Of a stretch of 17,852 nucleotides of DNA, positions 1,230 to 16,792 are shown piece by piece. Positions within the stretch are counted from its first letter, which is position 1; each line of letters begins with the position of its first letter. The translations under genes and the position numbers were made by a program. Source of the DNA: Globomyces pollinis-pini. Taxonomy: Eukaryota > Chytridiomycota > Chytridiomycetes > Rhizophydiales > Globomycetaceae. The notes under the pieces were generated by a model, which saw only the letters and a program-made list of their open reading frames with translations, was not told where the DNA came from and made no database searches. Location: NCBI GenBank assembly GCA_025399215.1, contig MU621427.1, forward strand, positions 1-17,852, given 5' to 3'.

Positions 1230-2595
1230 TTATAAGAACAAAAGTCCCATCACAGTCATTACAAGAGCGACTGCACTTCCAGCTTTGAAAGCAGATCCAT
1301 CAACTGGTCCAAGCTCTTCAGATGGCGGAGCTGCGGTTGGGGGAGCGAACTTTTGTGGAGCTGCGGCTAAATCAGGTGCGGTATTGATCTTCAATAAAGT
1401 GTTGAATAATTCTAATGCATTCATTTGGAAATGAACATTTCTAGGTTCAACCTTACCAGCAGACCAATAATTGGAATTACAGTTGAAATTGTCATCACAT
1501 AATGGAAGTAAGGCTTTAGCAGTGTTTTGAAGTAGACTTTTTAATTGTGCTTTCAAAGTCACATTCTTGGAAAACATGTACAAATCTCCAAGACCGCGAA
1601 TGTATGTGCCTTTAGGTAACACCTGGTTCTGTGGGCAAGTTTGCGTCTTTTCACAAGGATCATAAACGATATTGTTCAGAGTATAAGTTGGAAGAGAAGC
1701 AGCAGCGATATTTTCACCCAATTGAATGTATTCCTCTTTTCCAGTAGCTTTATATAACCAACCAAGTGAACCGGCCAACATACCAGCATTATAACTATGC
1801 AAGTCAATAACAAGTGCACAGGAATCAGCACTGAAAGCTTTTACGTTATCAAATACCGTAAAGTTCCTGGCGATTAACCCACCTCTTAGCCATTTGACCA
1901 TCTTATCAGCATGTTCAAGATAAGTTTGGTTACGGTTAATGATGGAAAGTCTTGCACCCATCATGATTTGTTGAGCATGAGTAATGGTAGATTTGATGTC
2001 TTTACGAGTAGCATCTTTACGATCTTTTGACCAATAAAGCCCACCTGGGTTTCCTTTACAAGTAACAGTTTCCCAATCATTCCATACGTCATCGTAAGTA
2101 TTTTGGGCCAATTGAAAGTAAGTGACACCTTTTGGCATCACAGTATTGACAGGGTAAATTTCAGCACCATATAAGCTACCAAGAGACCACCATAAGATAT
2201 CGTCATTCCATTTTCCTTGAATAGATATTTGACTGGCACGGTTTGATCCAAGAAACGAACCAACAGGACCATATGAAGCCAATGTTAAACCATTGGTGAC
2301 GACAGTTTTATATTGATCATCACCAGTCAATTTTTGGTATTCCATCATTGTTCCCCACATAATACCGCCTTCATACCATTGAAAGCCTTCAGGACCAGGC
2401 CTGGCATTTGGAAGGATTGACCCGCCGCTTGATGTTTTTGGAGTATAATAACTCATCAATTGGGCAGCAACTTTCTTGGTAGCTGCCAATAATTGGTCTA
2501 ATAGATGAATAACTTTAAAGAATTTTACCAGGTTTGTTAATGTCCAAAGTTGCAGCCAGTGCAACCGCGTTTAGAATGAAGTGTATTTTTACCAT
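1230..2595 (-). CDS. GPI-anchored GH76 cell-wall enzyme of the DFG5/DCW1 type
   Basis: GH76 proteins of this type act outside the plasma membrane and are thought to transfer GPI-anchored mannoproteins onto cell-wall glucan, processing the alpha-mannan part of the anchor. Two exons (2595-2529 and 2497-1230) give 444 residues, normal for the family. Residues 1-16 are a signal peptide. WNDDILWW carries the paired catalytic aspartates at about 121-122. Many Trp and aromatic residues, NRT/NFT/NVT sequons and paired Cys follow. The C-terminus has a Pro/Ala-rich stretch and a hydrophobic tail (SAVALVMTVMGLLFL) typical of GPI anchoring. The start ATG at 2595 is chosen because it alone gives the signal peptide. 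Without splicing the signal-peptide frame stops after 26 codons. Removing the 31-nt intron (2498-2528) joins LDINKP to DQLLAATKK and restores the spacing I expect for the family. A TATA element lies 36 nt upstream. Confidence 0.93.
2498..2528 (-). other. 31-nt mini-intron of the GH76 gene
   Basis: The donor is G|GTAAAA and the acceptor CTATTAG|AC. It is a phase-1 intron: the split codon G+AC gives Asp. Intron retention would bring TAA into frame within 12 nt. A later AG (at 2484) would give a 46-nt intron but would delete DQLLA and upset the family spacing, so the 31-nt form is preferred. No clear CTAAC branch site is visible; the best candidates are weak. Confidence 0.75.
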
Positions 2596-2630
2596 TTATG
2601 CTTTTAGCAAAAGAATAACGTGTTGCTTCA

Positions 2631-2637
2631 TTTTATA
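2631..2637 (-). promoter_or_regulatory. Probable TATA box of the GH76 gene
   Basis: On the minus strand this reads TATAAAA, about 36 nt upstream of the ATG at 2595. It is a consensus core-promoter element at a short but plausible distance for a yeast gene with a short leader. Confidence 0.4.
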
Positions 2638-3123
2638 AGTATGGTTGAATCTACTCAGTTCCCGACTTGGATATGGCTATGTGTTTTGTATCGCGATCTC
2701 ATATGTATGTATCAAAAACCAAGGACATTCCTATCAAACTCCATCTGATTGAAACCGATTCAATCATGTTGTGCAATTGAATAATTGAATATTAACTTGG
2801 TATTGTATAAGTTAAATATATCTGGTATGCTTGTATGTATTACAAGACACTCAGAATACCTAACTAATGGAAAAATGGAAACTGCACTATTCAATCCATA
2901 CAGTTCGTAGAGTTGTGTTCCTAAGTTAAACATATTACCTGAAAACATAATGTAACCGATTCCTGATTAGAAATGTGGATGACAGTTGAAAGTAGATATT
3001 GGGCGTGTCACCCGCCAGCAACATTTTCTCTCTCTTATTGTGAACAAATTTCATGGTCAGACTACCGTAGATTTGGACAATCCAAAATAAGATCAAATTA
3101 TATGTAAGGTTTCCGTTTATTAC

Positions 3124-3183
3124 ACATGTAATCGAAACACACAGTATTTCATAACATGTAATCGAAATATGCAGTATTTCAAA
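3124..3183. repeat. Two-copy 30-bp tandem repeat in the phosphatase 3' flank
   Basis: Two adjacent 30-base units start ACATGTAATCGAAA at 3124 and 3154, each followed by CAGTATTTCA near its end. They differ at only a few positions. The repeat ends 3 bases before the phosphatase stop codon at 3186, so it would form the start of the 3' untranslated region on the minus strand. Each unit contains a small GAAAT...ATTTC or similar inverted pair, so an RNA hairpin is possible. Confidence 0.7.
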
Positions 3184-3185
3184 TT

Positions 3186-4581
3186 CTATTCTTCTTTTAA
3201 TTGATTGGAATTCAAGGCACTGTAACGATACATGAATTCCAAATAATCCATGTAATGAAAATACGATTCAGATACCCAAAACAAAGGTAACAACGATTCA
3301 GACTGAAGGTGAATCATTTCGTATTCTTTCAGTGCCATTGCAAACCCTCTATTAGGTCTAATGATTGGTCGTATCTAAAACGCTTAGATCAACAAAATGT
3401 TTACCTTGTATGATTGATTCCATGCATCATATAACGACATTTGCTTATATCTAGGATAAAATATTCCAAATGAATTTACCGTATCAAGTATGCCAATACA
3501 ATGGTAGATGAACGAGAGACCCCAGCGTGGCAATGTACCTATAAAACATCAGCGTATTATAAAAGTACCAAGACTCTCTCGCCGTTCAATCGACAAGTTT
3601 CTATAATATCTGTAACAGCATCTAATAATTGATGTATTGGAGCATTTGGAGAGTCACCAATGGCATAATCGTAAAATTTTATAGTTTCTAAAGTTAAGGA
3701 GAGAAATGATACCATCACAATCATTCTGGAATCCCCAACCCATTCTAATTACATTTTTAATATCATATCTATCTAAATGTTGTTGATTACAGGCAAAGCA
3801 ACTGGAAAGGTATAAGAAATCATCAATAATAGGACTGGGCTGATCGCCTGGTATGTGCTTGCCAAACCAAACCTAAAATGTTAGTACAGTGACAGATATA
3901 ATCATGAGAATGCTTTTCATTTCGAATAACAAAAAAATCTTAAAAAGAACATAAAGAGTATAATGCCTCACTTAGCGAAAAAAGCGATTAAAATAAAATA
4001 AATATCCAGGATCATTGAACTAATAAAAAACATACCGAATCAACTAGCTCCTGCTGCATCCATTTAATACTTTGAATAGGGTTTTCTGAAGGGATATTAC
4101 CCAGAGAGCCTAAAAAGTCATGGTTCACCAAGTTTGTAGAAGGGTATGAAGAGTTAGTTAATAAAGTAGGGTATTGTTTTATGAATTCTGTCATTCCACC
4201 TTGCAAATAAACGCAAGATATGCATTCCCCTTCCTCCCTGATCCAGTGTGCTACAGACTGAGCAGCGCCATCCGTTAGTCCATCTTCATCATATACAATG
4301 ACATGTCCACCTATACGCTGATTGAAAATGGAATTTCCAGGAGAAAAATCGGGAGTGGTAAATCCATTATCGTCTCCAGTTTCCGATAAAATATTGCGAT
4401 CCTCTTGGTTAATCCAAACATGAGGTTTTAATGTGCTTTTCAGGTGCGGGAAATGCCTCGCACCAGGAATGGCGAATGAGAATTTGGAGCTAACATCGAT
4501 GATAATCGTCTTAAGATAATTTTCAGCCAGGAAAGAAATCAACTCTGAAGCGCTCAGGCTTTGAACTGAAGACGTTGGCAT
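3186..4581 (-). CDS. MAP-kinase-phosphatase-like protein: rhodanese domain plus dual-specificity phosphatase
   Basis: Six exons (4581-4036, 3872-3713, 3687-3569, 3538-3480, 3450-3405, 3374-3186) give 372 residues. Residues about 10-140 form a rhodanese/CH2-like domain (IIIDVSSKFSFAIPGARHF; HVIVYDEDG; VYLQGGMTEFIKQYP), with no obvious active-site Cys, as in MAP kinase phosphatases where it docks the kinase. The dual-specificity phosphatase domain starts near 196 (IIDDFLYLSS). It has the general-acid Asp at 247 (AIGDSP), the P-loop VHCHAGVSRSS with catalytic Cys278 and Arg284, the AYLIR helix, and IRPNRGFAMALKEYE at the end. This order is that of MKPs, so dephosphorylation of a MAP kinase in cytosol or nucleus is inferred. 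The introns are one 163-nt intron and four of 25, 30, 29 and 30 nt; one abuts the P-loop. An alternative start at 4625 (ATG TCC) joined by a 29- or 35-nt intron would add only a few residues and remains open. Confidence 0.93.
3375..3568 (-). other. Three mini-introns of 30, 29 and 30 nt in the phosphatase catalytic region
   Basis: The introns are 3539-3568 (GTACTT...TATAG, 30 nt, phase 0), 3451-3479 (GTAAAT...CCTAG, 29 nt, phase 2) and 3375-3404 (GTAAAC...TTTAG, 30 nt, phase 0). Their removal gives GERVL+VHCHAGVSRSS, then AYLIR+YKQMSLYDAWNQSYK, then IRPIIRPNRGF. This is the uninterrupted dual-specificity phosphatase sequence. The intervening exons are only 59 and 46 nt long. Confidence 0.92.
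3688..3712 (-). other. 25-nt mini-intron, the shortest in the window
   Basis: The donor is GTATCA; the putative branch site CTTAAC lies directly before the acceptor TTTAG. It is a phase-1 intron: G+AA gives Glu, joining QNDCD to ETIKFYDYAIGDSP and leading to the general-acid loop. Read through, the downstream frame is lost before the catalytic P-loop. The exact donor is inferred from frame and consensus. Confidence 0.8.
3873..4035 (-). other. Conventional 163-nt spliceosomal intron in the phosphatase gene
   Basis: The donor GTATGT and branch site TACTAAC (3880-3886) are the exact budding-yeast consensus, and the acceptor TTTTAG follows the branch site closely. It joins QQELVDS to VWFGKHIPGDQ in phase 0. 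It serves as the in-gene reference for ordinary splicing beside four mini-introns. Confidence 0.93.
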
Positions 4582-4956
4582 GGACTGAAACTGAATAAAA
4601 AAAAACAAAAAAAATTTACGGACATTAAGCAATTAGGAAATCAATGGTAAATCATATGGTAAGAACTTGGACCTGTTGGGGTGGTATTCCTACGGACTTC
4701 AAACATCGTCCAAGTTTTAATTTTGTTCCAAATGGTGTCTTTTTAAGGTATCACAAGAAAAAGCAAAAAGCAATAAAAGCAATCACAACTCATCAAATGA
4801 TTTACTGGAATTCAGGAAAATTTCTTTTACCTTTACTAGATTATTTGGCTGTTTTTACCTGTTACTGGATTTCTGGATTCACTGGCCTCATATTGTGTGA
4901 TTTATACTCAGAAATTCAAAAAAATATCAATTAGAAACCAGCTACAAGATCTCAAT
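4582..4956. promoter_or_regulatory. Divergent promoter region between phosphatase and the 4957 gene
   Basis: These 375 bases lie between two start codons facing away from each other, so they probably carry both promoters. A T/A-rich tract at 4596-4616 lies just upstream of the phosphatase start; it could instead be a short 5' intron. A 96-codon open frame (4644-4934, +) with one hydrophobic stretch fills much of the gap. I found no family for it and do not call it a gene. Confidence 0.4.
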
Positions 4957-5681
4957 ATGGTTCAATTCGCTGATGATATTGCATCGATTTGTATATTCAA
5001 CCCAGATGACTCTCCTACCCTCCTAAATCCTCACGAGTCGTTATCTGTACTGAATCTCCATAACTTGGATCACCCAACATCCATCGGTTTGGCATATCGT
5101 CTCTCATCTCTTCATACTCCTCAGTGTACACAAATTCATTTACTTTCAGTCTCAAATTTGGGTGTTTCGGGAGCTGTAGTCTTCCCCGAATCTATTGTTT
5201 ACGACCTCATCCTATGTATATCATTTGACAATTGGGAATCTAACCATACGGTACCTGTTTCAAAAAACTTATTCCACATACAATTGGATCAGCATCTTCA
5301 ATCTTGTCAATTTCTCCTTACATATAAACTATTGGAGGAAAAATGTGATATAGAATACCACGATCGTTATCAGGTACACATTTCCAAACTTATTTTTAGC
5401 TGGATTATATTCCAGAAAAGGAAAAGCATGTCATTGAAGTAATCTCTTCTCTAGTATCCCCAACCTTACCTTCCTCTTTACGCCGTTATCAATCCAGAAA
5501 ATCAGATATAAATTCAGAAAGGTTCTATGAATTAGGAATACCCACAATTGCCTCAGAGACGAATCTTCTCCCGATCGTCGATTCATGTCGGTTTGATGTC
5601 AGATTAGATGACTTTCACTCAGACTTTCATTTCACCCCTACGAGTGCTACTGATTTGCTCTGTTTCTCTGCATCCATTTAG
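4957..5681 (+). CDS. Unrecognised 232-residue protein, two exons
   Basis: Exon 1 (4957-5373) and exon 2 (5400-5681) are joined by a 26-nt intron (GTACAC...TTTTAG, phase 0), linking HDRYQ to LDYIPEKEKHVIEVISS. Unspliced, the first frame continues only 23 more codons to a stop, while the second exon is open to TAG at 5679 with even, protein-like codon use. The product is soluble: no signal peptide and no convincing membrane segment. It starts MVQFADDIASICIFNPDDSP and has a hydrophobic core (SGAVVFPESIVYDLILCISFD), an acidic segment and a Ser/Asp/Phe-rich C-terminus ending LLCFSASI. I do not recognise a family. The ATG at 4957 is the first in frame; only non-ATG codons lie upstream. It is divergently arranged with the phosphatase gene. 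Confidence 0.75.
5374..5399 (+). other. 26-nt mini-intron in the 4957 gene
   Basis: GTACAC donor and TTTTTAG acceptor, phase 0. A CCAAACT stretch just before the pyrimidine-rich end is the only branch-site candidate. The call rests on restoration of a 94-codon downstream frame plus the same GTA...TAG form seen in the other mini-introns. It is the only plus-strand example. Confidence 0.78.
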
Positions 5682-5938
5682 AATTTAGACACTTTACTAA
5701 TATAATATTAATTAAACGTAATCAATGATTTTAAGATCAAAATACTTACCTAAGATGAGAATATCACTTGACTGCCTAGAGCATGCAGCATCATCACCTA
5801 GCATCAAGTTCATCGCTACTGCATGATCCGCTTTAATCTCCACGATCAATATTTGGTTCATCCACGGTTGCCAGATTGCCACCATTCAAATGATGAATTT
5901 CTCAACCATTGTTCATCCTCTAAACGACTACTATTATA

Positions 5939-7282
5939 ATGGCAACATCACGATTTGTAGGATCAGTGGCCTCTCTTCAAAAACTTCGAGAAACTGCAGA
6001 GACAGGGGACCCAATGGCGAATTATCAATTGGGATTATATTATGAAATAGGATGTGATGATGCCAATGGGAATGTACTGATCGTTGGTGGTGATTATTTG
6101 AATGCACTAAAATGCTACAAGACAATCCCAAATTATGCTATGAACCAAAATCGATTTTACCTTCAATCACCTTTATCCCAATTCCGAATTTCGTATATTT
6201 ATCAAATAAGTTATCATAATGACAAATTAAAAGGTAAAATCTATATGGATTGGTTATACAAATCATTTTGCCAAGGTTATGCTATTGCAGCAATGGAACT
6301 AGGAGAGAAATTGTTGAATCAAGATATGAGTCCTAAATCAAAAAATCTATCAATATTTCTTTACTATCTATCCATATTTGAATATGGGATTGACAGAATT
6401 CAAGTTCAAATCAACCAAAATAATATCAAAGACAATGATATTTTAAATGCCAATACATTAAACATGACATTGAAGATGGACAACGCGAAACCAATCATGA
6501 AATCATTCCATAATTTATTTATCAATGATCAATTTTCGGATAGTGAAAATGAAACTTCAAGTCAAATTACAATTGATTCACAATACCAAATGAATCAAGA
6601 TACAGACACGTCTCTGTTCAACAAAGAATCAATGATTTTGATCACAAATGGATACACTGTTTTGAAAATGAAATCTCAACAAAAGATATTAAAATATTTA
6701 ACGGATGATCGTCACTTGGTGAACAATTTCAAAAATTGTATAGCACCAAATATACCTTTTGCTAAAAACATTGGAACAGAATTCTATCATTACTATTTAC
6801 TATCCAACTGGAAATATGGAGAACCAGAATTGAAATCTATCCAATTTTTACAAATGTCAAGTGCTTATTTCTGTTCGGACGGATCATATGAATATGCTAG
6901 ACAACTTCAATTCTATGCTAACCAAAGCTGGTGTGATTTCGATGAGGATACAAGAAAAATCCATTATATTTCCTTCTATTGGGATGCTGCAAGGAAAGGC
7001 CATATCTTGGCCCTTTTAGCTTTAGCAGATTGCATTCAAAACGATGAAAAGGCTTTAGCGTGTAGAAAACTGGCATTTTATTATCTAGGAAAAGATATTA
7101 CTTTAGAAAATCAAATCAAAAATCTATTTTCAATTGCTAAACCTAAACTTCCACGATTGACGAATGTCAATGAATTTTTGGATTTTGAAAAGAAGAAATT
7201 TAAAGCTCATTGGTTTGGAAAGCAACAACCAAGAAAAAACCAAATGAATATTTTATTATCCTGGTGTTGTTGCATACCTTGA
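5939..7282 (+). CDS. Sel1/TPR-like repeat protein with a cysteine-rich tail
   Basis: This is a single-exon frame of 447 residues starting at the first ATG. The N-terminus (LRETAETGDPMANYQLGLYYEIGC, then NALKCYKTIP) and later segments (MDWLYKSFCQGYAIAAMELGEKLL; SFYWDAARKGHILALLALADCI) have the A/G/L/Y spacing of Sel1-like alpha-helical repeats, which mediate protein-protein contacts. Between about 150 and 220 is a low-complexity Asn/Asp/Ser-rich insert. The protein is charged and soluble overall but ends LLSWCCCIP, three adjacent Cys close to the C-terminus. These could be S-acylated or act as an unusual prenylation site; CCIP is only a poor CaaX box. No mini-intron was found. Function is unknown; a scaffold or regulatory subunit role is inferred only from the repeat type. 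It converges on the MFS gene, with 39 bases between stop codons. Confidence 0.75.
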   Translation: MATSRFVGSVASLQKLRETAETGDPMANYQLGLYYEIGCDDANGNVLIVGGDYLNALKCYKTIPNYAMNQNRFYLQSPLSQFRISYIYQISYHNDKLKGKIYMDWLYKSFCQGYAIAAMELGEKLLNQDMSPKSKNLSIFLYYLSIFEYGIDRIQVQINQNNIKDNDILNANTLNMTLKMDNAKPIMKSFHNLFINDQFSDSENETSSQITIDSQYQMNQDTDTSLFNKESMILITNGYTVLKMKSQQKILKYLTDDRHLVNNFKNCIAPNIPFAKNIGTEFYHYYLLSNWKYGEPELKSIQFLQMSSAYFCSDGSYEYARQLQFYANQSWCDFDEDTRKIHYISFYWDAARKGHILALLALADCIQNDEKALACRKLAFYYLGKDITLENQIKNLFSIAKPKLPRLTNVNEFLDFEKKKFKAHWFGKQQPRKNQMNILLSWCCCIP

Positions 7283-7321
7283 ACTAAAATTCATATTAAT
7301 AAAAAATACAATTTATTTTAA

Positions 7322-9087
7322 TCATCTTCGCTTACGTTTCCGAATGTAATACAGTGCACATGATAAACAGACAGATATTAGTTGGAAAGCAGTAGAAACA
7401 TGGAATGTAGTTGAAAAGCAATGAATTCCATAACAATAATTAGATTTTGGTCCACTTTGATTCTGATTTGCCAATTGCATGTCATAAATAGTGCCAAATA
7501 CAAGATTCATCACCACAATCAATAGAGGTACTCCCATTAAAGAAAATGAACATGCAGTACCATAATATTTAGGACCAGATATTGATCGAAGTACTGTTGG
7601 GAATAGTCCACCTCCAGCACCAAATCTATGATTAGCACTATCAGATTTGTTACCCTAATCCAGTGAGAATAGAACATATCGATAGTATTGGTGAATCAAT
7701 CAAATATGATAAATTACTGGTGGTTGATAAAATAATACAAGGTAAGAGAATAATAACTTCCGCAACAATCAATAATATCGTTCGATCATATTTATAATGT
7801 ACCACAATATCAGAAAATATCCCAAAACTTAGTCGTCCTACTGATTGAGATATCGAAACCAGTGTCACATGCCTGGTTGTTAAAGCCTGGAGTTCAATCA
7901 CGTTGGTGGATATGGAAGATCCGGCTCGAATGATTGCATTGACGTTATTCATGTAACTTAATCCTTGTTGAAAAACAATGGTAAGTGCATAAAGTAGAAA
8001 GGCCTTATCTCTTAGCATCTGTGATGGTGTAATTGATACAGGTTCGCCTGTGACTAGCATAGACATTTCGGTGCTTTTAGGTACTGTTTCCGTATTATTT
8101 GTGGTAGTTCCATGATTGAGTGAACCAAGTTCGACCATGTTGGAATGATTTACTGGTTCTTGTTTCAAATTCACGGAACGATTGCATATACCAGGAATCA
8201 GTTTGCATATGAATTCTTTTCTAGATGAAAATCTTCTGGTATGTTGGGTATCAGGAACCATTAGACTTTGATTTTTAACAATCTCAGTTGGAGGTACCGA
8301 TATAAGCTCAATTGATGCAACTCTGGGTGTTATTGCAAGTTCTATTGGTGCAGTTGCTAGTATCTCATTTGCTTGTGGTGCTGATGTTTCTGGTAACAAT
8401 CCAATCTGTTTTGGTAACGGTATTTTGACTACAAATAGACATCCTAACCCATATATGGTCACTACTGAAAGAGTCAGAAACCCAAGGAATCCTTCTAAAT
8501 TGGTATTGTAAGAAAACCAAAGATTGTACGCCTAAGGTTAGACATGAGATTGAATTCTCATACCAGTGCATATAACGTCCCTGATAAACCATAGAATAAA
8601 AGCAATGAACCAGTAATGATTCCTAAATACTTCTCAGGGAAGTTCTGTGATGTGACTCCAATTCCAACCATATATCTAACCAAATAAGTAATAATTAAAT
8701 ACCCAGAACTCGATCCAAACCCACACATCACATAATAAACTGCAGTAAGTATTGCGGTGGTACCAATTGACCTATTGTATGACAAATACATCAACAAGTA
8801 TCCCAAAGAATAGACAATCTACCGATTAACGATTTATAAAATACCATTCCAGTAAAGAGAGTGACTGTTGATCCATATTTATCATACAACGGACCAGCAA
8901 CCAAATAAGATAAATAGAGGGACGCAGTACCAGCAGCACTGACGACGTTAACATCTGAGAATGACCATAAAAATCGTTCACGTAATCCATCCGACAAAAT
9001 AGAAAATGTAGCTAATGATCCAGATACAACAATCACAAGACAACTAATCAGATATGCTGTTATTCGACTTTTTGGTATAGCCAACAT
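7322..9087 (-). CDS. MFS transporter A, MCH1/nodulin-like (monocarboxylate-porter-like) family
   Basis: Five exons (9087-8845, 8818-8703, 8675-8564, 8531-7654, 7625-7322) give 550 residues with about 12 membrane segments. MFS signatures include YLVAGPLYDKYG in the loop between helices 2 and 3, and GLSYMNNVNAIIRA after a long cytoplasmic loop, as in fungal Mch1 and plant nodulin-like MFS proteins. The second half has SQSVGRLSFGIFSD and GLGFGAGGGLFP. The central loop (about 110 residues longer than in paralog B) is hydrophilic and Ser/Thr/Pro-rich, a likely regulatory segment. Near the C-terminus YCYGIHCF is shared with B, a possible disulphide pair, and the tail is basic (RKRKRR). The four introns are 26, 27, 32 and 28 nt. 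The substrate is unknown; a small carboxylate or metabolite is only a family-level guess. It lies 176 bases downstream of the seven-helix gene on the same strand. Confidence 0.92.
7626..7653 (-). other. Mini-intron 4 of MFS A (28 nt)
   Basis: GTAACA donor, GCTAATC branch-like sequence and ATAG acceptor. Phase 2: GG+A gives Gly, producing GLGFGAGGGLFP. It is at the same position as intron 4 of paralog B. Confidence 0.92.
8532..8844 (-). other. Mini-introns 1-3 of MFS A (26, 27, 32 nt)
   Basis: Intron 1 is 8819-8844 (GTATTT...GGTAG, phase 0), joining LFTGM to IVYSLGYLLM. Intron 2 is 8676-8702 (GTATTT...GTTAG, phase 2); it contains no stop in the coding frame and is a multiple of three, so it hides inside an open frame. 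Intron 3 is 8532-8563 (GTATGA...CCTTAG, phase 0) with a clear CTAAC five bases before the end. All three positions are occupied in paralog B. Confidence 0.9.
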
Positions 9088-9263
9088 TAAGAAATAAACA
9101 ATTCAATTGACGGTTGTGAAGGCATGATTGAAATCACCAGATGTGATTTACGTGACTTTATCCACGACTAATCACGAACGAAAATCAATCAACTCACACG
9201 ACTTGAAAAACATTTGTATTGCACATGTTTAAATATATTTTAGGTACTATAAATACTATTCCA

Positions 9264-10346
9264 TTATACATTACTGTCAGTATTGAAACTGATATCAAAT
9301 TTGTAATCTTCTGGTTGAATGAATGCAGCAAACCCAGAAAAATCATACAGATTTGGTGATTTAGTATCAGTAGAAATTTCTAAATTATCCAATTGATAAA
9401 ATTGTTGACCATTATAACGTGACACGCTAGTAATAGAAGTTCTAGTGGTCGCTTGTTGCATGTTTGTAGAACCCAATGATCTATTGGTAGCTTGTTGAAA
9501 GTTTGTGGATAATATGGATGAAAAATATTGATTGGATCTTAATGGTAATCTTGATTCTGAAAGTAAATTTCGTAATAATCCTATAAATCGAAGATTACAT
9601 CTACATCTGTAAGTTAGCATTGTTATGGTGATGATGCCATCAAACGTTAAGGATACTCCAAAAGCAAGTAAATATTTCATTACAATATTCAAGATTAATA
9701 ATAACCAGATCGTGAAGTAATCCATCCAAATAAGTCTGATGAAAGTATTCTTGTTCTTTGATATTGAATCTGATTTGGGCTTTGAATTCTTTTCTACCTT
9801 TACCAATGGTAACAAGACCAAAATATCAATAAATACTGATATTAAGATGGTAGAAAATATCATGAGGATATTAATTGGTTCAAATATTTGAGAATAGTAG
9901 AATGATCGCATCACATAATTCTGATTTACTGTTGCATTTCCAACACCAATATACAACGGAATTAACGTCAAAAAAGGAATTAGGTAGAAGAACTTGAAAT
10001 TGGTAAAGATTAGATTGATCCATGTGGAGTTATTGGCGATTCTGTACCTTCCCAGAGAATTGTGATTGACAATAATAAGACTGAAGTGTAGACAAGTATT
10101 GATGATCAAAATCAATAGATTGATCAATGTAATTTGTTTTGTGGTTGGTATAATTGGGTATAGGAATAAATAGCAAATAGACGATATAAACATCAACGTT
10201 GATAACACATTCTGTCGACTTTCATCATTTTTGAATGACAATGGGATTCCATTTGTAAAGATTATTTGAGAATTCAACACCAGACTGAAACCGGTAAACA
10301 AACTTCCTAAAGACACACTGAATGATATCAATGGTTCTAACGGCAT
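9264..10346 (-). CDS. Seven-helix membrane protein, divergent member (paralog D)
   Basis: The single exon of 360 residues begins at the ATG that aligns with the starts of the three plus-strand paralogs. It shares the family frame: an N-terminal helix, a short loop with NDESRQ (NDTDRQ in the others), LINLLILIINTCLHFSLIIVNHN (others IIINHNT), YLIPFLTLIPLYIG, an NAT glycosylation sequon in the loop after helix 4, a helix beginning FEPINI (others FKPLNI), a basic loop, and FDGIITITMLTYRCRCNLRF (others FDSAVSITTMIMRGRFNL). The tail has a short repeated element (STNFQQATNRS / STNMQQATTRT) and ends with FSGFAAFI...FDISFN, a degenerate form of the family tail motif. It is the most divergent and most AT-rich of the four. 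Same strand as MFS A. Function unknown; topology resembles a receptor. Confidence 0.82.
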   Translation of the reverse strand: MPLEPLISFSVSLGSLFTGFSLVLNSQIIFTNGIPLSFKNDESRQNVLSTLMFISSICYLFLYPIIPTTKQITLINLLILIINTCLHFSLIIVNHNSLGRYRIANNSTWINLIFTNFKFFYLIPFLTLIPLYIGVGNATVNQNYVMRSFYYSQIFEPINILMIFSTILISVFIDILVLLPLVKVEKNSKPKSDSISKNKNTFIRLIWMDYFTIWLLLILNIVMKYLLAFGVSLTFDGIITITMLTYRCRCNLRFIGLLRNLLSESRLPLRSNQYFSSILSTNFQQATNRSLGSTNMQQATTRTSITSVSRYNGQQFYQLDNLEISTDTKSPNLYDFSGFAAFIQPEDYKFDISFNTDSNV

Positions 10347-10876
10347 TCAATTTTTTTAATGATACAGATGATTGTGGTGCCTACTTATACATAATGCCAC
10401 GATCCTTGGTGTGAAACATTCCTTCACGCAGATATTACACCAATACTTTGATCCTAAATGGCCATGGAGCGTAACGGATACTTCTTAGAAGGATTGTTGA
10501 TTATTTTATGGGAATTGGTGGTGAGTACAAGGACTTCACACGAGAATCATCAAGTGGCTCAACCTGTTGAAACTATTCCGTATGGCTTTCAAACCCATGT
10601 CGTCATGCTTCTCGAGATGCCAAAAAACGGTTTGAGATCGATGATGACGATATGGATCATGAGATAATTGCTTTTGAGTGCTTGGGATATGGGATATGTC
10701 TGTTGTGGTAACTATTTCTTTGGTAATAGGTATTTGAAAAAAACCAACTCATTAGTTGAATGTTGACTAAAATTCTCGAGAATTGCTCAGGAAAAGTTCA
10801 AAGTCGCGAATTGAATGTGCAAGTAGGAATAAATAAATTTATTTCGTGTAAAATCACTTTAAATGTTGAATGTAAG
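10347..10876. other. Gap between paralog D and MFS B
   Basis: The left part would hold the promoter of paralog D (minus strand), the right part the 3' flank of MFS B. Between them is degraded coding-like DNA on the plus strand, given as a separate entry. Nothing else was identified. Confidence 0.4.
10408..10710 (+). pseudogene. Possible gene relic of unknown family
   Basis: One plus-strand frame reads protein-like sequence broken by in-frame stops (TAA near 10471, TGA near 10570): IVDYFMGIGGEYKDFTRESS before the second stop and HASRDAKKRFEIDDDDMDHE after it, up to TAA. No GT-AG segment removes the stops. An alternative frame at 10458-10667 opens with ATG but gives a less protein-like product. 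I do not recognise the family. It may equally be chance. Confidence 0.25.
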
Positions 10877-12339
10877 CTAGTAAATTCTCTTTTTAGATGA
10901 ATTGTAAAATAACCAAGCTGATAACGTCGTTGAAATAATTTGAAAACATAATGAAATCACAAATGTAATTTGAAAACAATGTATCCCATAACAATAATCC
11001 TGGTAGTCTCCAGATTCATTTTGTTGAGCTAATGCAGAATCATATACTGCACCGAATATCATATTGGAGGTGACGATAAGGATTGGAACACCTGTCATAA
11101 CAAATGCACATGCCGTTCCATAGTATTTCAAACCAGAGATGGATCTTAAAATAATAGGAAATAATCCTCCTCCAGCACCTATAAAGTAAATTGGCAAAAT
11201 CATTACCAAATCTAAAAGATTAACTACATAAGTTTATGGTACCCTAATCCATACAATATGGAGCAAACAGTCAAAATTGGAGATTCTACCAGAGTTGATA
11301 AGTCAGTTGTAAACGCTAAAATAAGATTCGGTATTAAAATAATAATTTCAGTTAATAATAGTAAACATGTTCGATCCATGTTAAAATATGATACAACATC
11401 AGATAAAGAGCTGAATCCTAATCTTCCAACTGATTGAAATACTGAGAGTAAAGTTACATGGTAAGCGGTCTGGGTCGCAAGCCATGATGCATCAATTGAA
11501 GGTGATGATGCGGCACGAATAATCGCATTTACATTGTTCATATAACTTAATCCTTGTTCAAATATAACTGAAAGGGCAAATATAAGAATGTTTCTGTTTG
11601 TGAACATTTGTAGTGGTGTTAAGTTATCATCATCTTCTGAATCATCGGTAATTTCCTCATATACTTGAATATCAGTGACAAACACGATGCCAATTGAATA
11701 GACTATCAAAACGATAATCGCCAAAAATTTGAAATAATCACCTATATATACTTCAAGTTCAGTTGTATAGAAGTAATGATAGATCTGAGTGGGTGAGAAC
11801 AATATACATTACTTACTTGAGCAAAAAAAGATCCTGCAATTCCATAAAAGAACAGTAACATTCCCATTATCAATCCTACATGCCCACCCAGAAAATTAAT
11901 TGAATTCACTCCAACACAAACAAGGTAACTAATCATAAAAGTTCAAGTTCAATACCCTGCACTGGCACCAAATCCACACATGAAGTAGTAAAATGCTGTA
12001 ACCAAAGGACTGGTAGATATGATTCCAATAAACGACAACCACATCAGTCCATAACCGAGAGTATATGCCACCTACAACTTTGTCAGAATTATTTTATACC
12101 ATTCCTAAGCCCAAAGTCAAAGAAGCTCCATATTTATCATAAAAAGGACCAACGAACATATAAGAAATATATAAAGCAGCAGTTCCAGCAGCGCTTATTA
12201 AATTTACATCCGAAAAACTCCAATTATAGCGCTCACGAAGTCCATCGGAAACTAAAGAGAAGGAAGACAAAGAACCGGTCACTAGCATGACTATTGTTGA
12301 GCATATAAAGGTTGATATTCGATTTTTTTGAATCAACAT
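10877..12339 (-). CDS. MFS transporter B, paralog of A, with a 5-nt microexon
   Basis: Six exons (12339-12100, 12071-11956, 11928-11817, 11784-11243, 11211-11207, 11178-10877) give 438 residues. The protein aligns with MFS A along its whole length: SDGLRERYNWSFSDVNLISAAG, YMFVGPFYDKYG, FEQGLSYMNNVNAIIRAASS, SVGRLGFSSLSD, GLGFGAGGGLFP and YCYGIHCF. The central loop is short and acidic (TDDSEDDDN), where A carries about 110 extra residues. The introns are 28, 27, 32, 31 and 28 nt; the first four match those of A in position and phase, the fifth is unique. The substrate is unknown, as for A. Its start faces the start of the seven-helix gene at 12697 across 357 bases, so a shared promoter is likely. 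Confidence 0.92.
11207..11211 (-). other. 5-nt microexon of MFS B
   Basis: The sequence ATTTG lies between intron 4 (11212-11242, 31 nt, GTACCA...TTTTAG) and intron 5 (11179-11206, 28 nt, GTAATG...TTATAG). Including it gives GG+A TTT G+GT, coding GFG in GLGFGAGGGLFP, identical to paralog A. Skipping it joins GG to GTGCTGG and breaks the frame at once. Confidence 0.82.
11785..12099 (-). other. Mini-introns 1-3 of MFS B (28, 27, 32 nt)
   Basis: Intron 1 is 12072-12099 (GTATAA...TTGTAG, phase 0). Intron 2 is 11929-11955 (GTATTG...GATTAG, phase 2); here the 27 nt carries in-frame TGA codons, unlike its counterpart in A. Intron 3 is 11785-11816 (GTAAGT...CTCAG, phase 0), the only CAG acceptor in the set. 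The exons between are 116 and 112 nt, as in A. Confidence 0.92.
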
Positions 12340-12696: not shown

Positions 12697-13761
12697 ATGG
12701 CATTGGCAACACCTATTATAATTACTTTAACTGGAGGTGGATTTTTTACTGGAATGAATCTGGCTTTGATTTACACTTTATTAAGACAGTATAAAGTCAA
12801 TTGGGATTTGGAAAAGGATGAAGACCGTCAAACTGTACTTTGTGTTGTGTTGCTAATCAGTACTATTGCTGCTACAATTGTTTACCCTTTAAACGAACAT
12901 GGTTCCCAAGTACCTTTAATTAACTTCCTTTGTTTTACCTTTTTTATTGGAATTCAATTTGGTTTGGTTATCATTAATCACAATACTTTGTTCAGGTTCA
13001 GTGCAGCATTCCCTAATATTGCATTTTTCAAATTCATGTTGAATCATTATGCAGTTCTATATATTATACCTCTCTTTACAATGATTCCAATTTATCTGGC
13101 TGCATACGATTCAAGAAACACTCATGTGGCCTTCAACAAAAACTATTATAACACAGAGGTATTTAAACCTTTAAATATTGCATTGGTATTCATCACGGAA
13201 TTACTTGCAGTCATAACGGACATGTGCCTATTGTCCGTTGTAGTGGATGCAACTTCCAAAAATCACAGACACTCTATGAATTCATTCTCCAACAAGAAAA
13301 ATAGATCGTTGAAAGGAAGATGGAAAGAAGTCAAACTTAATCTAAGTGGAGAACTATGGTCAGATTACATTGTCATTTGGTTTCTTTTAGCGATTGATAT
13401 ATCCTTAAAACTAGCAATTGCTTCTGGGGTTAAAATAGTATTTGATAGCTCCGTATCAATTGCAACTATGGTCATGAGAGCCAGATTTAACTTACAATAC
13501 AAATCATCTTTGGAATACATGTTGATAAAATCCAAAAGGAAATATACACAGAAAATATCAAGCATCACAAGTGACGAACCTCCAACTATTCCAAACAATG
13601 TCCCTGCGAATACTTTTGATTTTTCTAATGTATTGGATTCATTTATAGTAGACGAAGGTCAAAAGTTTGCTATGAAATCATTTAATCCTTTGGATAAATC
13701 TCACCAATCGAATTCAAACCCAGACTCTTTTTCTTTTATTTCGGATAAATCTACAATATGA
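12697..13761 (+). CDS. Seven-helix membrane protein (paralog A)
   Basis: The single exon codes 354 residues. The ATG at 12697 is chosen because it gives an N-terminus of exactly the same length as in the two downstream paralogs (MALATPIIITLTGGG...). Seven hydrophobic segments are predicted, with family blocks DRQTVLC, GLVIINHNT, YIIPLFTMIPIYLAAY, FKPLNIAL, DYIVIWFLLAIDISLK and FDSSVSIATMVMRARFNLQY. The longest loop, between helices 5 and 6, is strongly basic (NKKNRSLKGRWKEVK), indicating a cytoplasmic side. The cytoplasmic tail of about 95 residues has FDFSNVLDSF and AMKSFNPLD. Unlike the other three it lacks a clear N-glycosylation sequon in the loop after helix 4. A GPCR-like topology (N-terminus out) is inferred; I cannot assign it to a named receptor class. 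Confidence 0.85.
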   Translation: MALATPIIITLTGGGFFTGMNLALIYTLLRQYKVNWDLEKDEDRQTVLCVVLLISTIAATIVYPLNEHGSQVPLINFLCFTFFIGIQFGLVIINHNTLFRFSAAFPNIAFFKFMLNHYAVLYIIPLFTMIPIYLAAYDSRNTHVAFNKNYYNTEVFKPLNIALVFITELLAVITDMCLLSVVVDATSKNHRHSMNSFSNKKNRSLKGRWKEVKLNLSGELWSDYIVIWFLLAIDISLKLAIASGVKIVFDSSVSIATMVMRARFNLQYKSSLEYMLIKSKRKYTQKISSITSDEPPTIPNNVPANTFDFSNVLDSFIVDEGQKFAMKSFNPLDKSHQSNSNPDSFSFISDKSTI

Positions 13762-14015: not shown

Positions 14016-15209
14016 ATGCCCATATCAAATATTGTTCTAGCAACGCTTGGTTGTGGATGTTTCTTTGCCGGAATGAATTTAGCATTGATTCAATCAACAT
14101 TAAAAGAATATGGAATTCATTTAAATTTACAGAATGATTCTCATAGACAAACTGTATTATGCTTGGTTTTATTGGTTTCTACTCTTTCCGCTATCATTGT
14201 ATATCCAGTAAACGAAGAAGGCTCTCAAATTACCTTAATCAATATTTTAACTCTATCACAACTATCCAGTGTGCAATATGGATTGGTTATCATTAACCAT
14301 AATACCATATTTAGATTCGGTGCTGCATATCCAGAAAACAAAATATTGAAACTCATACTGAAGTATTATGGATTATTGTATATTATACCATTCTTCACTA
14401 TGATACCCATTTATTTGGCTGCTTACCACTCAATACCATATAACAAAACTTTAAACAAACATTTTTATAACGTTGAAGTTTTTAAACCTTTAAATATTGG
14501 ATTGGTATTGGGAACCGAATTCCTGGCTGTTATAACTGACTTACGATTATTGGTCAGAGTTGGAGAAGTCACCGATAAAACAACACTCAGAAATCCTATA
14601 TTAGCACACGACAATGGATTGAAAAGGAAATGGAAAAAAGTTCAGAAATATTCCAAAAATGGATTATGGAGGGAATATTATGTGATTTGGGGATTATTAG
14701 TATTGGATATATCAATCAAAATTGCTATTGCATCTGGAATACGATTATTATTTGATAGTGCAGTATCTGTTACAACAATGATCATGAGAGGTCGATTTAA
14801 CTTACAATACACATCTTTATTAAAATTTATGTTGGAGAACCCGAAATATAAGACAACAATGGCCACTCAAATATTACCTAACCATGCCTTGGGTGGAGGA
14901 GAATTGACTGTTCCAATGACTAGTGGATTCTCTGATGCCATTGACTCGTTTTTGGGTAATCAAACAGATTTGTTTGGGATGAAATCTTTTAATCCGTTGG
15001 ATGAATCTACACTGGGTGGGCCAAGGAGTGGTCAATCAGATGAACTATTGGCTTCTACACTAGGTGGTCAGATTAGTGGTCAAACAGATGAATTATTGGT
15101 TTCTACATTGGGTGGTCAATCAGATGAATTATTGGCTTCTACAATGGGCAGTGGGCAGAGGAGTGGACAATCGGATGAATTATTGACCTCCCCTGCGCCT
15201 ACACTATAA
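14016..15209 (+). CDS. Seven-helix membrane protein with repeat-extended tail (paralog B)
   Basis: The single exon codes 397 residues. The core is close to paralog C: GCGCFFAGMNLALIQSTLKE, RQTVLCLVLLVSTLSAIIVYP, GLVIINHNTIFRF, YIIPFFTMIPIYLAAY, NKT sequon, FKPLNIGLVLGTEFLAVITD, a basic loop, YYVIWGLLVLDISIK, FDSAVSVTTMIMRGRFNLQY. The tail carries the family motif (GFSDAIDSFL...FGMKSFNPLDES) and then about 60 further residues made of four imperfect repeats (STLGG...SGQSDELLA), which the other paralogs lack. The repeats are polar and acidic, suggesting a flexible cytoplasmic extension that could bind partners or set turnover. It starts 254 bases after the stop of paralog A, a tandem arrangement. 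Confidence 0.85.
   Translation: MPISNIVLATLGCGCFFAGMNLALIQSTLKEYGIHLNLQNDSHRQTVLCLVLLVSTLSAIIVYPVNEEGSQITLINILTLSQLSSVQYGLVIINHNTIFRFGAAYPENKILKLILKYYGLLYIIPFFTMIPIYLAAYHSIPYNKTLNKHFYNVEVFKPLNIGLVLGTEFLAVITDLRLLVRVGEVTDKTTLRNPILAHDNGLKRKWKKVQKYSKNGLWREYYVIWGLLVLDISIKIAIASGIRLLFDSAVSVTTMIMRGRFNLQYTSLLKFMLENPKYKTTMATQILPNHALGGGELTVPMTSGFSDAIDSFLGNQTDLFGMKSFNPLDESTLGGPRSGQSDELLASTLGGQISGQTDELLVSTLGGQSDELLASTMGSGQRSGQSDELLTSPAPTL
15010..15188 (+). repeat. Coding tandem repeat in the tail of paralog B
   Basis: Four imperfect copies, about 48 bases each except a shortened third, encode STLGGPRSGQSDELLA, STLGGQISGQTDELLV, STLGGQSDELLA and STMGSGQRSGQSDELLT. The shortened copy and base-level similarity suggest expansion by slippage or unequal exchange within an otherwise conserved gene family. 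Confidence 0.85.
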
Positions 15210-15730: not shown

Positions 15731-16792
15731 ATGCCAATACCACTTTTGATTGCTGTCACTATTGGAGGTGGATGTTTCTTTGCTGGTGTTAATATCGCAT
15801 TAATTCAAATGACCTTAAAGGAATATGGATTCAATTTTAATCTTAAAAACGATACTGATAGACAAACTGTACTATGTTTGGTTTTGTTTATTGGTGCTAT
15901 TACATCCATGGTTTTGTATCCACTGAATGATGAAGGATCCCAAATTACTTGGATTAATATTTTGGTGGTAACGTTACTATTCAGTGTACAATATGGACTT
16001 GTCATCATCAATCACAATACCATTTTTAGGTTTAGTGCTGCCTATCCAGAAAACAAATTCTTTCAATTCATTTTACGTCATTATGGATTCTTGTATATCA
16101 TACCAATTTTTACAATGATACCGATTTATTTGGCAGGATATTATACCATCCCATCCAATGTCACTCTCAACAAACATTTTTTCAATATGCAAGTATTTAA
16201 ACCAATGAATATTGCGTTGGTTTTAATAACAGAATTATTGGCTGTGATTACAGATATACGATTGTTGGTTAGAGTAGGGGAAGTTACTGATAGAACAAAT
16301 TTAAAGAATTCATCAATACAACCTAAAGGATTTAAACGAAATTGGAAAAAGTTTCAGAAGTATTCTCGAGCAGATTTATGGAGAGATTATTATGTCATTT
16401 GGGGATTATTGGTTATCGACATCAGTTTAAAAATCGCTATTGCAAGTGGTGTAAAGATCATTTTCGATAGTGCCGTTTCTATTACAACGATGATTATGCG
16501 AGGAAGATTCAATTTACGATATACTTCTTTATTGAAATATATGCTGGAAAACCCAAAGCTTAAACCCACAAATGTGACTTATACTGTTCCATTACAACAT
16601 GCTCAATACGAACGTACCCATCAAAGTTCAGCGACATTACCAGCAGATACAGTTGGATTTTCTAATGTTTTGGATTCTTTCATGTTTGATGAAAGTGCTC
16701 AGTTTGGAATGAAACAGTTTAATCCATTAGATTCTTCAATTGCTGATGAGAGTCTTAAAGCAAGTGAAAATTCTCTCTTACCAAACAAATAG
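15731..16792 (+). CDS. Seven-helix membrane protein (paralog C)
   Basis: The single exon codes 353 residues. Predicted membrane helices are at about 4-26, 46-65, 73-95, 117-138, 158-178, 219-238 and 241-256. The loop between helices 5 and 6 (about 179-218) is rich in Lys/Arg, and an NVT sequon lies in the loop after helix 4 (residue 143). By the positive-inside rule this places the N-terminus outside and the tail of about 97 residues in the cytosol. Conserved blocks: NDTDRQTVLC, GLVIINHNTIFRF, PIFTMIPIYLAGY, FKPMNIALV, FDSAVSITTMIMRGRF. The tail has GFSNVLDSFMF and FGMKQFNPLD. It is closest to paralog B, indicating recent tandem duplication. Sensing of an extracellular ligand is a topology-based guess. 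Confidence 0.86.
   Translation: MPIPLLIAVTIGGGCFFAGVNIALIQMTLKEYGFNFNLKNDTDRQTVLCLVLFIGAITSMVLYPLNDEGSQITWINILVVTLLFSVQYGLVIINHNTIFRFSAAYPENKFFQFILRHYGFLYIIPIFTMIPIYLAGYYTIPSNVTLNKHFFNMQVFKPMNIALVLITELLAVITDIRLLVRVGEVTDRTNLKNSSIQPKGFKRNWKKFQKYSRADLWRDYYVIWGLLVIDISLKIAIASGVKIIFDSAVSITTMIMRGRFNLRYTSLLKYMLENPKLKPTNVTYTVPLQHAQYERTHQSSATLPADTVGFSNVLDSFMFDESAQFGMKQFNPLDSSIADESLKASENSLLPNK

Follow-up and report, generated by a model that had tools for sequence, protein, structure and literature searches.

Ultrashort spliceosomal-type introns as the main intron class in a genome sample of the chytrid Globomyces pollinis-pini, and mid-size introns divisible into ultrashort units

The stretch of DNA analyzed here (the window; 17,852 nucleotides [nt]) is the entire contig 338 (MU621427.1) of the 459-contig, 18.55-Mb draft assembly of Globomyces pollinis-pini. 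It carries two paralogous MFS genes (MFS A and MFS B), a gene encoding a protein with rhodanese and dual-specificity phosphatase domains, a GH76 gene and a gene starting at position 4957, and without splicing these genes appear as broken open reading frames (ORFs). An earlier note, made from the sequence alone, had proposed that these five genes are interrupted by 15 spliceosomal-type introns of only 25 to 32 nt; when the segments were located and excised by script, all 15 lengths as well as the outer coordinates (2498 and 12099) were reproduced. The same note had taken the genome for that of a yeast-like fungus, which it is not: the source organism is a chytrid (Chytridiomycota, Rhizophydiales, Globomycetaceae) with axonemal genes, including one with a radial-spoke protein match (286.9 bits) that fits a flagellated life stage. 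A search with the exact 18S 3'-end pattern gave no match.

The two MFS genes, both on the reverse strand, could be compared with deposited proteins. A deposited G. pollinis-pini protein of 438 amino acids (aa; P0123) is identical to the product of MFS B (10877..12339) at 438/438 residues and demands exactly the five introns that had been claimed for this gene, i.e., introns of 28 nt (12072..12099), 27 nt (11929..11955), 32 nt (11785..11816), 31 nt (11212..11242) and 28 nt (11179..11206). The last two are separated by an exon of 5 nt (11207-11211), which the deposited protein implies as well. Alignment of P0123 with MFS A (7322..9087; spliced product of 550 aa) yielded the same four boundaries that excision had given, with introns of 26 nt (8819..8844), 27 nt (8676..8702; divisible by three and free of in-frame stops), 32 nt (8532..8563) and 28 nt (7626..7653); an extra jump of 345 nt in this alignment corresponds to the central loop of MFS A, which is an open reading frame and was not counted as an intron. 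One of these four introns, the 28-nt intron, is also required by a protein from Globomyces sp. JEL0801 (P0122), which is identical to MFS A at 389/393 residues. As MFS A does not contain the fifth MFS B intron, a single gain or loss between the paralogues is indicated. The MFS_1 domain was recognized only after splicing (58.6 bits for MFS A and 47.6 bits for MFS B), and none was found in the two longest unspliced ORF pieces.

For the remaining window genes we relied on Pfam domains and on a gene finder with a flat intron-length prior (12-400 nt), which was trained on a genome sample (217,852 bases, or 1.2% of the genome, with the window as a part of it) together with the confirmed introns. Within the window, the gene finder misplaced the start of MFS B (calling a false 191-nt intron) and missed the second intron of MFS A. 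The phosphatase gene (3186..4581, reverse strand; extent as given by the gene finder) encodes, once spliced, a PF00782 domain (94.2 bits) and a PF00581 domain (27.1 bits), while the unspliced ORF yields only a sub-threshold rhodanese match. The DSPc domain (residues 202-329) is assembled by splicing and spans all four short introns, which are 25 nt (3688..3712), 30 nt (3539..3568, directly before the residues VHCHAGVSRS), 29 nt (3451..3479) and 30 nt (3375..3404) in length. Script excision and the gene finder both revealed a further intron of 163 nt in this gene (3873..4035, reverse strand; GTATGT ... TACTAACATTTTAG), with GTATGT and TACTAAC, which had been overlooked before; the set of 15 short introns stands, but the introns of these genes are not all short. 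Overall, restoration of frame and protein has independent backing for 13 of the 15 short introns (five in MFS B and four each in MFS A and the phosphatase gene). The other two were identified by frame restoration and motif, i.e., the 31-nt intron (2498..2528) of the GH76 gene (1230..2595, reverse strand; an ab initio call with a spliced product of 444 aa and a PF03663 match of 186.7 bits) and the 26-nt intron (5374..5399) of the 4957 gene (4957..5681, forward strand, called by the gene finder). In the GH76 gene the intron precedes the part that encodes the Pfam domain, and the Pfam score is identical for the spliced and the unspliced sequence; the 232-aa spliced product of the 4957 gene matched no Pfam family.

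Short introns are not peculiar to the window. A gene predicted on contig 100 encodes an adenylate kinase (AK7) that has a Dpy-30 motif; its best database match, at 95% identity, is a deposited G. pollinis-pini protein, which aligned with the contig at 730/730 residues when 12 introns of 26-34 nt were removed. The same 12 introns were obtained with the Terramyces orthologue as query, and 11 of the 12 with the Boothiomyces orthologue. The actin gene, searched with a yeast actin sequence (333/375 residues identical), requires introns of 29, 36, 27 and 31 nt, and all four lengths were unchanged when GT and AG ends were no longer required, with edges sliding by 1-3 nt. For the RPB2-like gene (L014-L016, contig 2), the spliced product aligned over residues 23-1223 with the Schizosaccharomyces pombe chain 3h0g_B (1874 bits). 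This gene also contains a 24-nt GTA..CAG segment (GTACATATTTTCATCTAATACCAG), divisible by three and stop-free, which the gene finder took as coding; relative to two RPB2 chains of fungal type it adds 8 residues, and we consider it a probable intron. Across a set of six genes, 41 of 42 introns were 36 nt or shorter (median 29 nt, shortest 24 nt). The set takes in the phosphatase introns, all five of which have domain support only, as well as one RPB2 intron that precedes the aligned part, RPB2 junctions past the printed alignment (after residues 987, 1039, 1110 and 1154) and the 24-nt RPB2 intron, which was added by hand on the basis of the 8-residue insertion. Lengths divisible by three accounted for 15 of the 41 protein-supported introns of up to 36 nt, i.e., there was no deficit of such lengths in this small sample. 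Several introns of further actin-family loci (whose ARP names, used below, are our presumption) were excluded as length evidence because an actin query cannot fix their lengths, namely those of 78, 48 and 37 nt at L030, of 228 and 56 nt at L031, and of 93, 195 and 116 nt as well as the second 78-nt intron at L036; judging from the Arp3 sequence, parts of the excluded L036 introns are presumably coding.

In the genome sample, the gene finder called 102 genes with 358 introns, including 217 of 24-33 nt, 9 of 12-23 nt, 47 of 34-60 nt and 85 of 61-400 nt, with a mode of 28 nt. Longer introns thus coexist with the short ones (e.g., one of 106 nt called in an isocitrate lyase-like gene), although the longer calls include errors. 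An earlier scan with strict coding thresholds had been too insensitive. When splice-site weights were made flat, the 24-33 nt band contained 102 GT..AG calls, whereas 10 other dinucleotide pairs yielded 11-29 calls apiece.

The preceding exon ended in G in 68% of the 217 short introns, position +3 was A in 92% and a T preceded the terminal AG in 78%, whereas positions +4 to +6 were weakly conserved; donors are thus weak beyond G|GTA, and the introns end mostly in TAG. A motif search of these introns recovered a YTNAY-like putative branch motif (A in 98%), with a gain of 1.07 bits per intron as compared to a mean of 0.38 and a maximum of 0.45 bits in 20 shuffled sets. In 174/217 introns, 6-10 nt separate the A of this motif from the end of the intron, and in 189/217 it occupies position 17-23 counted from the donor; the earlier note had given a spacing of about 17-22 nt between donor and branch site. 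A U2 small nuclear RNA (snRNA) of ordinary form was found (135.4 bits), in which GUGUAGUAUCUG is kept and which carries GTGTAGTATCTG, as was a U5 snRNA of ordinary form (80.5 bits) with its GCCUUUUAC loop kept.

Taken together, we are strongly confident that the segments of about 24-36 nt are genuine spliceosomal introns, that they form the modal intron class of the G. pollinis-pini genome and that they are probably removed in a U2-type manner by intron definition: excision between GT and AG restores the proteins, and the branch motif has its match in the U2 snRNA. The proposal of dense spliceosomal-type introns in a fungus therefore finds support. In the simplest mechanism, a U2-type spliceosome would recognize each short intron through intron definition across a very small distance and would remove it from the RNA; the cues would be a donor with little beyond G|GTA, a YTNAY-like branch sequence and a mostly TAG acceptor, the presumed branch A being situated, in most introns, 17-23 nt downstream of the donor and 6-10 nt upstream of the acceptor.

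Several results weigh against this reading. The coding model used in the decoy test was trained on GT..AG genes and hence somewhat favors GT..AG, and the deposited MFS B and AK7 proteins are themselves gene models. Lifting the GT/AG requirement retained introns of 24, 228, 58, 25 and 27 nt in Arp2 but added spurious introns at the ends, and it changed several introns at the Arp4-like locus (L030), so that this control is clean for actin only. A genome-wide search for the pattern GTAT..CTAAC..TAG gave 235 matches as compared to 189 for a control pattern (2 versus 3 in the sample), and no called sample intron of up to 36 nt fits this pattern, so that this comparison is uninformative. Next to the ordinary U2 and U5, Rfam searches of the genome detected neither U1 nor U6 (best U6 score 24.2 bits, with a cut-off of 44), although such searches do not show absence. 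A U6 core with one mismatch allowed matched once, as compared to two matches for a control, and the matched locus showed no U6 match up to E = 1; U6 may be lacking in this assembly, or an intron may split it.

These points have to be weighed together with three other explanations. As the assembly is a draft in 459 contigs, the frame breaks could represent assembly or sequencing errors or pseudogene decay, with intron-like ends arising by chance, but we regard this as exceedingly improbable, as the segments start with GT and end with AG alike in the actin, RPB2, AK7, MFS and phosphatase genes, far fewer calls are obtained with decoy dinucleotides, and foreign as well as deposited proteins are restored on excision. 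The weakness of the donors beyond GTA, along with the U1 and U6 results, would fit removal or skipping by other means, such as DNA elimination or ribosomal bypassing; this, too, appears very unlikely given the GT..AG ends, the fixed spacing between the branch-like motif and the 3' end, the ordinary U2 and U5 and the textbook signals (GTATGT and TACTAAC) of the 163-nt intron that shares the phosphatase gene with four short ones. Finally, the density and uniform size of the introns, as well as the single intron gained or lost between the MFS paralogues, might be taken to indicate copies of a mobile introner-like element. We consider this very improbable also, as the top score reached by any two of the 217 short introns (14.5) falls within the range of the best scores of shuffled sets (12.0, 15.0 and 13.0); no near-identical intron families were found among these 217 introns. 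Genuine, U2-type ultrashort introns remain the explanation that we favor.

Some introns of 53-96 nt can be cut, without remainder, into two or three complete short introns that meet at AG|GT, the sequence also found at ratchet sites of recursive splicing. The 58-nt intron of Arp2 (29+29 nt) and the first 78-nt intron of Arp3 (27+24+27 nt), both removed whole in the protein alignment, are examples, as is a 58-nt intron (30+28 nt) in a gene that is presumably Prp6-like. In scans of the called introns, in which the 44-400 nt calls include weak ones, 24 introns measured 44-70 nt, and 7 of them consisted of two units of 22-36 nt joined at AG|GT, as compared to a mean of 0.91 and a maximum of 4 in 200 shuffles, and 2 of 24 introns of 73-110 nt split into three units, as compared to 0.025 in shuffled sequences; among introns of 111-400 nt, 0 of 52 decomposed into short units. 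With the set enlarged slightly, 8 of 29 introns split, and the tetranucleotides that were most over-represented at the split were AGGT and its one-base neighbor GGTA. A MYST-type gene on contig 31 (PF01853 match) contains an 89-nt stack, not called as an intron by the gene finder, between two stretches that are open in the same frame; joining these stretches covered the whole PHD profile (17.1 bits, which is below the cut-off of 24). This stack consists of three similar GT..AG units head to tail (28+29+32 nt; L022:8653-8741, reverse strand), and a second array of three similar units (32+30+26 nt; L045:2232-2319, forward strand) also lies on contig 31; the units of both look like tandem copies.

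Among 16 unit pairs from 13 stacks, mean similarity was 4.4 as compared to 1.6 for random pairs of short introns, although three pairs carry much of this difference and the 13 stacks do not represent a random set, as they were picked from the split scans and by eye. A scan for similar tandem units found 10 junctions at AG|GT (one of which looks coding) and 0-11 at each of 13 decoy junctions, corresponding to 83 and 0-75 per 10,000 pairs, respectively, a separation that is only suggestive; AC|CT, the reverse complement of AG|GT, had been excluded as a decoy, and two decoy pairs are mutually reverse complements. When the gene finder was allowed to jump stacks, it called no stack at any of 11 junction types, as the penalty for the second intron exceeded the gain, which makes this outcome uninformative.

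These data suggest that stacking in the DNA is likely real and that tandem duplication is a plausible origin of the stacks. As an internal AG|GT regenerates a donor, we tentatively propose that intron modules of about 28 nt may multiply in place, head to tail, and that the spliceosome may remove a stack unit by unit, although we think it rather doubtful that this full scheme holds. Duplication of a whole ultrashort intron would create an AG|GT junction consisting of a complete acceptor and a complete donor, and the stack would then be removed through zero-length exons. It is quite possible, though somewhat short of probable, that the mid-size introns are instead ordinary single introns removed in one step, with internal AG|GT sites that arose by chance or reflect a history without function. 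One-step removal would give the same protein, AG|GT tandem units are not clearly more common than decoys and none of the longest introns decomposes, all of which would fit single introns; conversely, two-way and three-way splits exceed those in shuffled sequences, and the units of a stack are more alike than random short introns are, even if a few pairs contribute much.

The window also contains ORFs in which no introns were seen. One of 447 aa (5939-7282, forward strand) matched no Pfam family, and its sole match among the 5.8 billion proteins searched was itself. Four others, of 353-397 aa (9264-10346 on the reverse strand, and 12697-13761, 14016-15209 and 15731-16792 on the forward strand), appear by eye to belong to one multi-copy membrane-protein family; the three that were scanned matched no Pfam family.

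Short introns are known from microsporidia. Introns of about 25 bp are described for the ciliates Paramecium and Nyctotherus, and lengths divisible by three are under-represented in ciliates (PMC5014332). As in Paramecium and Nyctotherus, most introns in G. pollinis-pini fall into the same size class (a main class of about 20-34 nt, here 217/358 calls at 24-33 nt), have GTA...TAG-like ends and are dense in genes; unlike in these ciliates, the host is a fungus, longer introns occur as well (163 nt in the window and 106 nt called) rather than ultrashort ones only, and lengths divisible by three show no deficit, as far as a small sample can tell. Trichomonas has two intron classes, one of about 25 nt and one of 56-196 nt, and introns of 15 nt in Stentor and 18 nt in Bigelowiella have been reported (PMC12316389). 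G. pollinis-pini resembles Trichomonas in that short introns whose ends vary coexist with longer ones that carry TACTAAC-type signals, but Trichomonas has few introns in all, as compared to some 358 calls in 218 kb here.

Among fungi, Cryptococcus neoformans introns average 63 bp (PMC8476143), and this species had the largest share of introns <100 nt among the fungi of a study in which a 20-40 nt bin was analyzed (PMC11913375); single fungal introns of such size are therefore not new. Both fungi are intron-dense with short introns, but the mode of 28 nt and the 24-33 nt main class in our sample set G. pollinis-pini apart. Saccharomycopsis introns have a minimum of 37 and a median of 113 nt (PMC13148404), with a mean of 213 nt given elsewhere (PMC5106798); on these grounds, Saccharomycopsis was dismissed as a candidate for the source of the window. 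The stacks resemble stwintrons and recursively spliced introns (PMC8469720, PMC7138796) in that an intervening sequence could be removed in consecutive reactions; unlike in stwintrons, the units lie side by side, each complete, un-nested and about 24-33 nt long. The available text of a 590-species survey mentions no such fungus (PMC11649378), that of two papers on relatives does not mention intron length (PMC13391722, PMC11797018), nor does PMC3207900, and in a literature search covering titles and abstract openings we recognized no description of ultrashort introns in a chytrid. The earlier note had also expected gene callers to shatter such genes, yet the two deposited models checked carry 5 and 12 ultrashort introns. 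As the introns of MFS B and AK7 are thus already present in public gene models, the novelty lies in recognizing the class and the stacks.

Introns of about 28 nt are close to the shortest known in nature. An ultrashort main class is known from ciliates and a small class from Trichomonas (PMC5014332, PMC12316389); a fungal case that stands on its own, and in which the U2 branch-pairing sequence is ordinary, would allow direct tests, in a fungal system, of the smallest size at which a spliceosome can assemble. For annotation, stop-free introns divisible by three, such as the second MFS A intron and probably the 24-nt RPB2 segment, are read as extra amino acids by ORF-based methods, as happened here. 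If modules do multiply in place, introns would grow in steps of one intron, a form of intron gain via tandem duplication of introns themselves, and the stacked introns would be a visible record of intron gain and extension.

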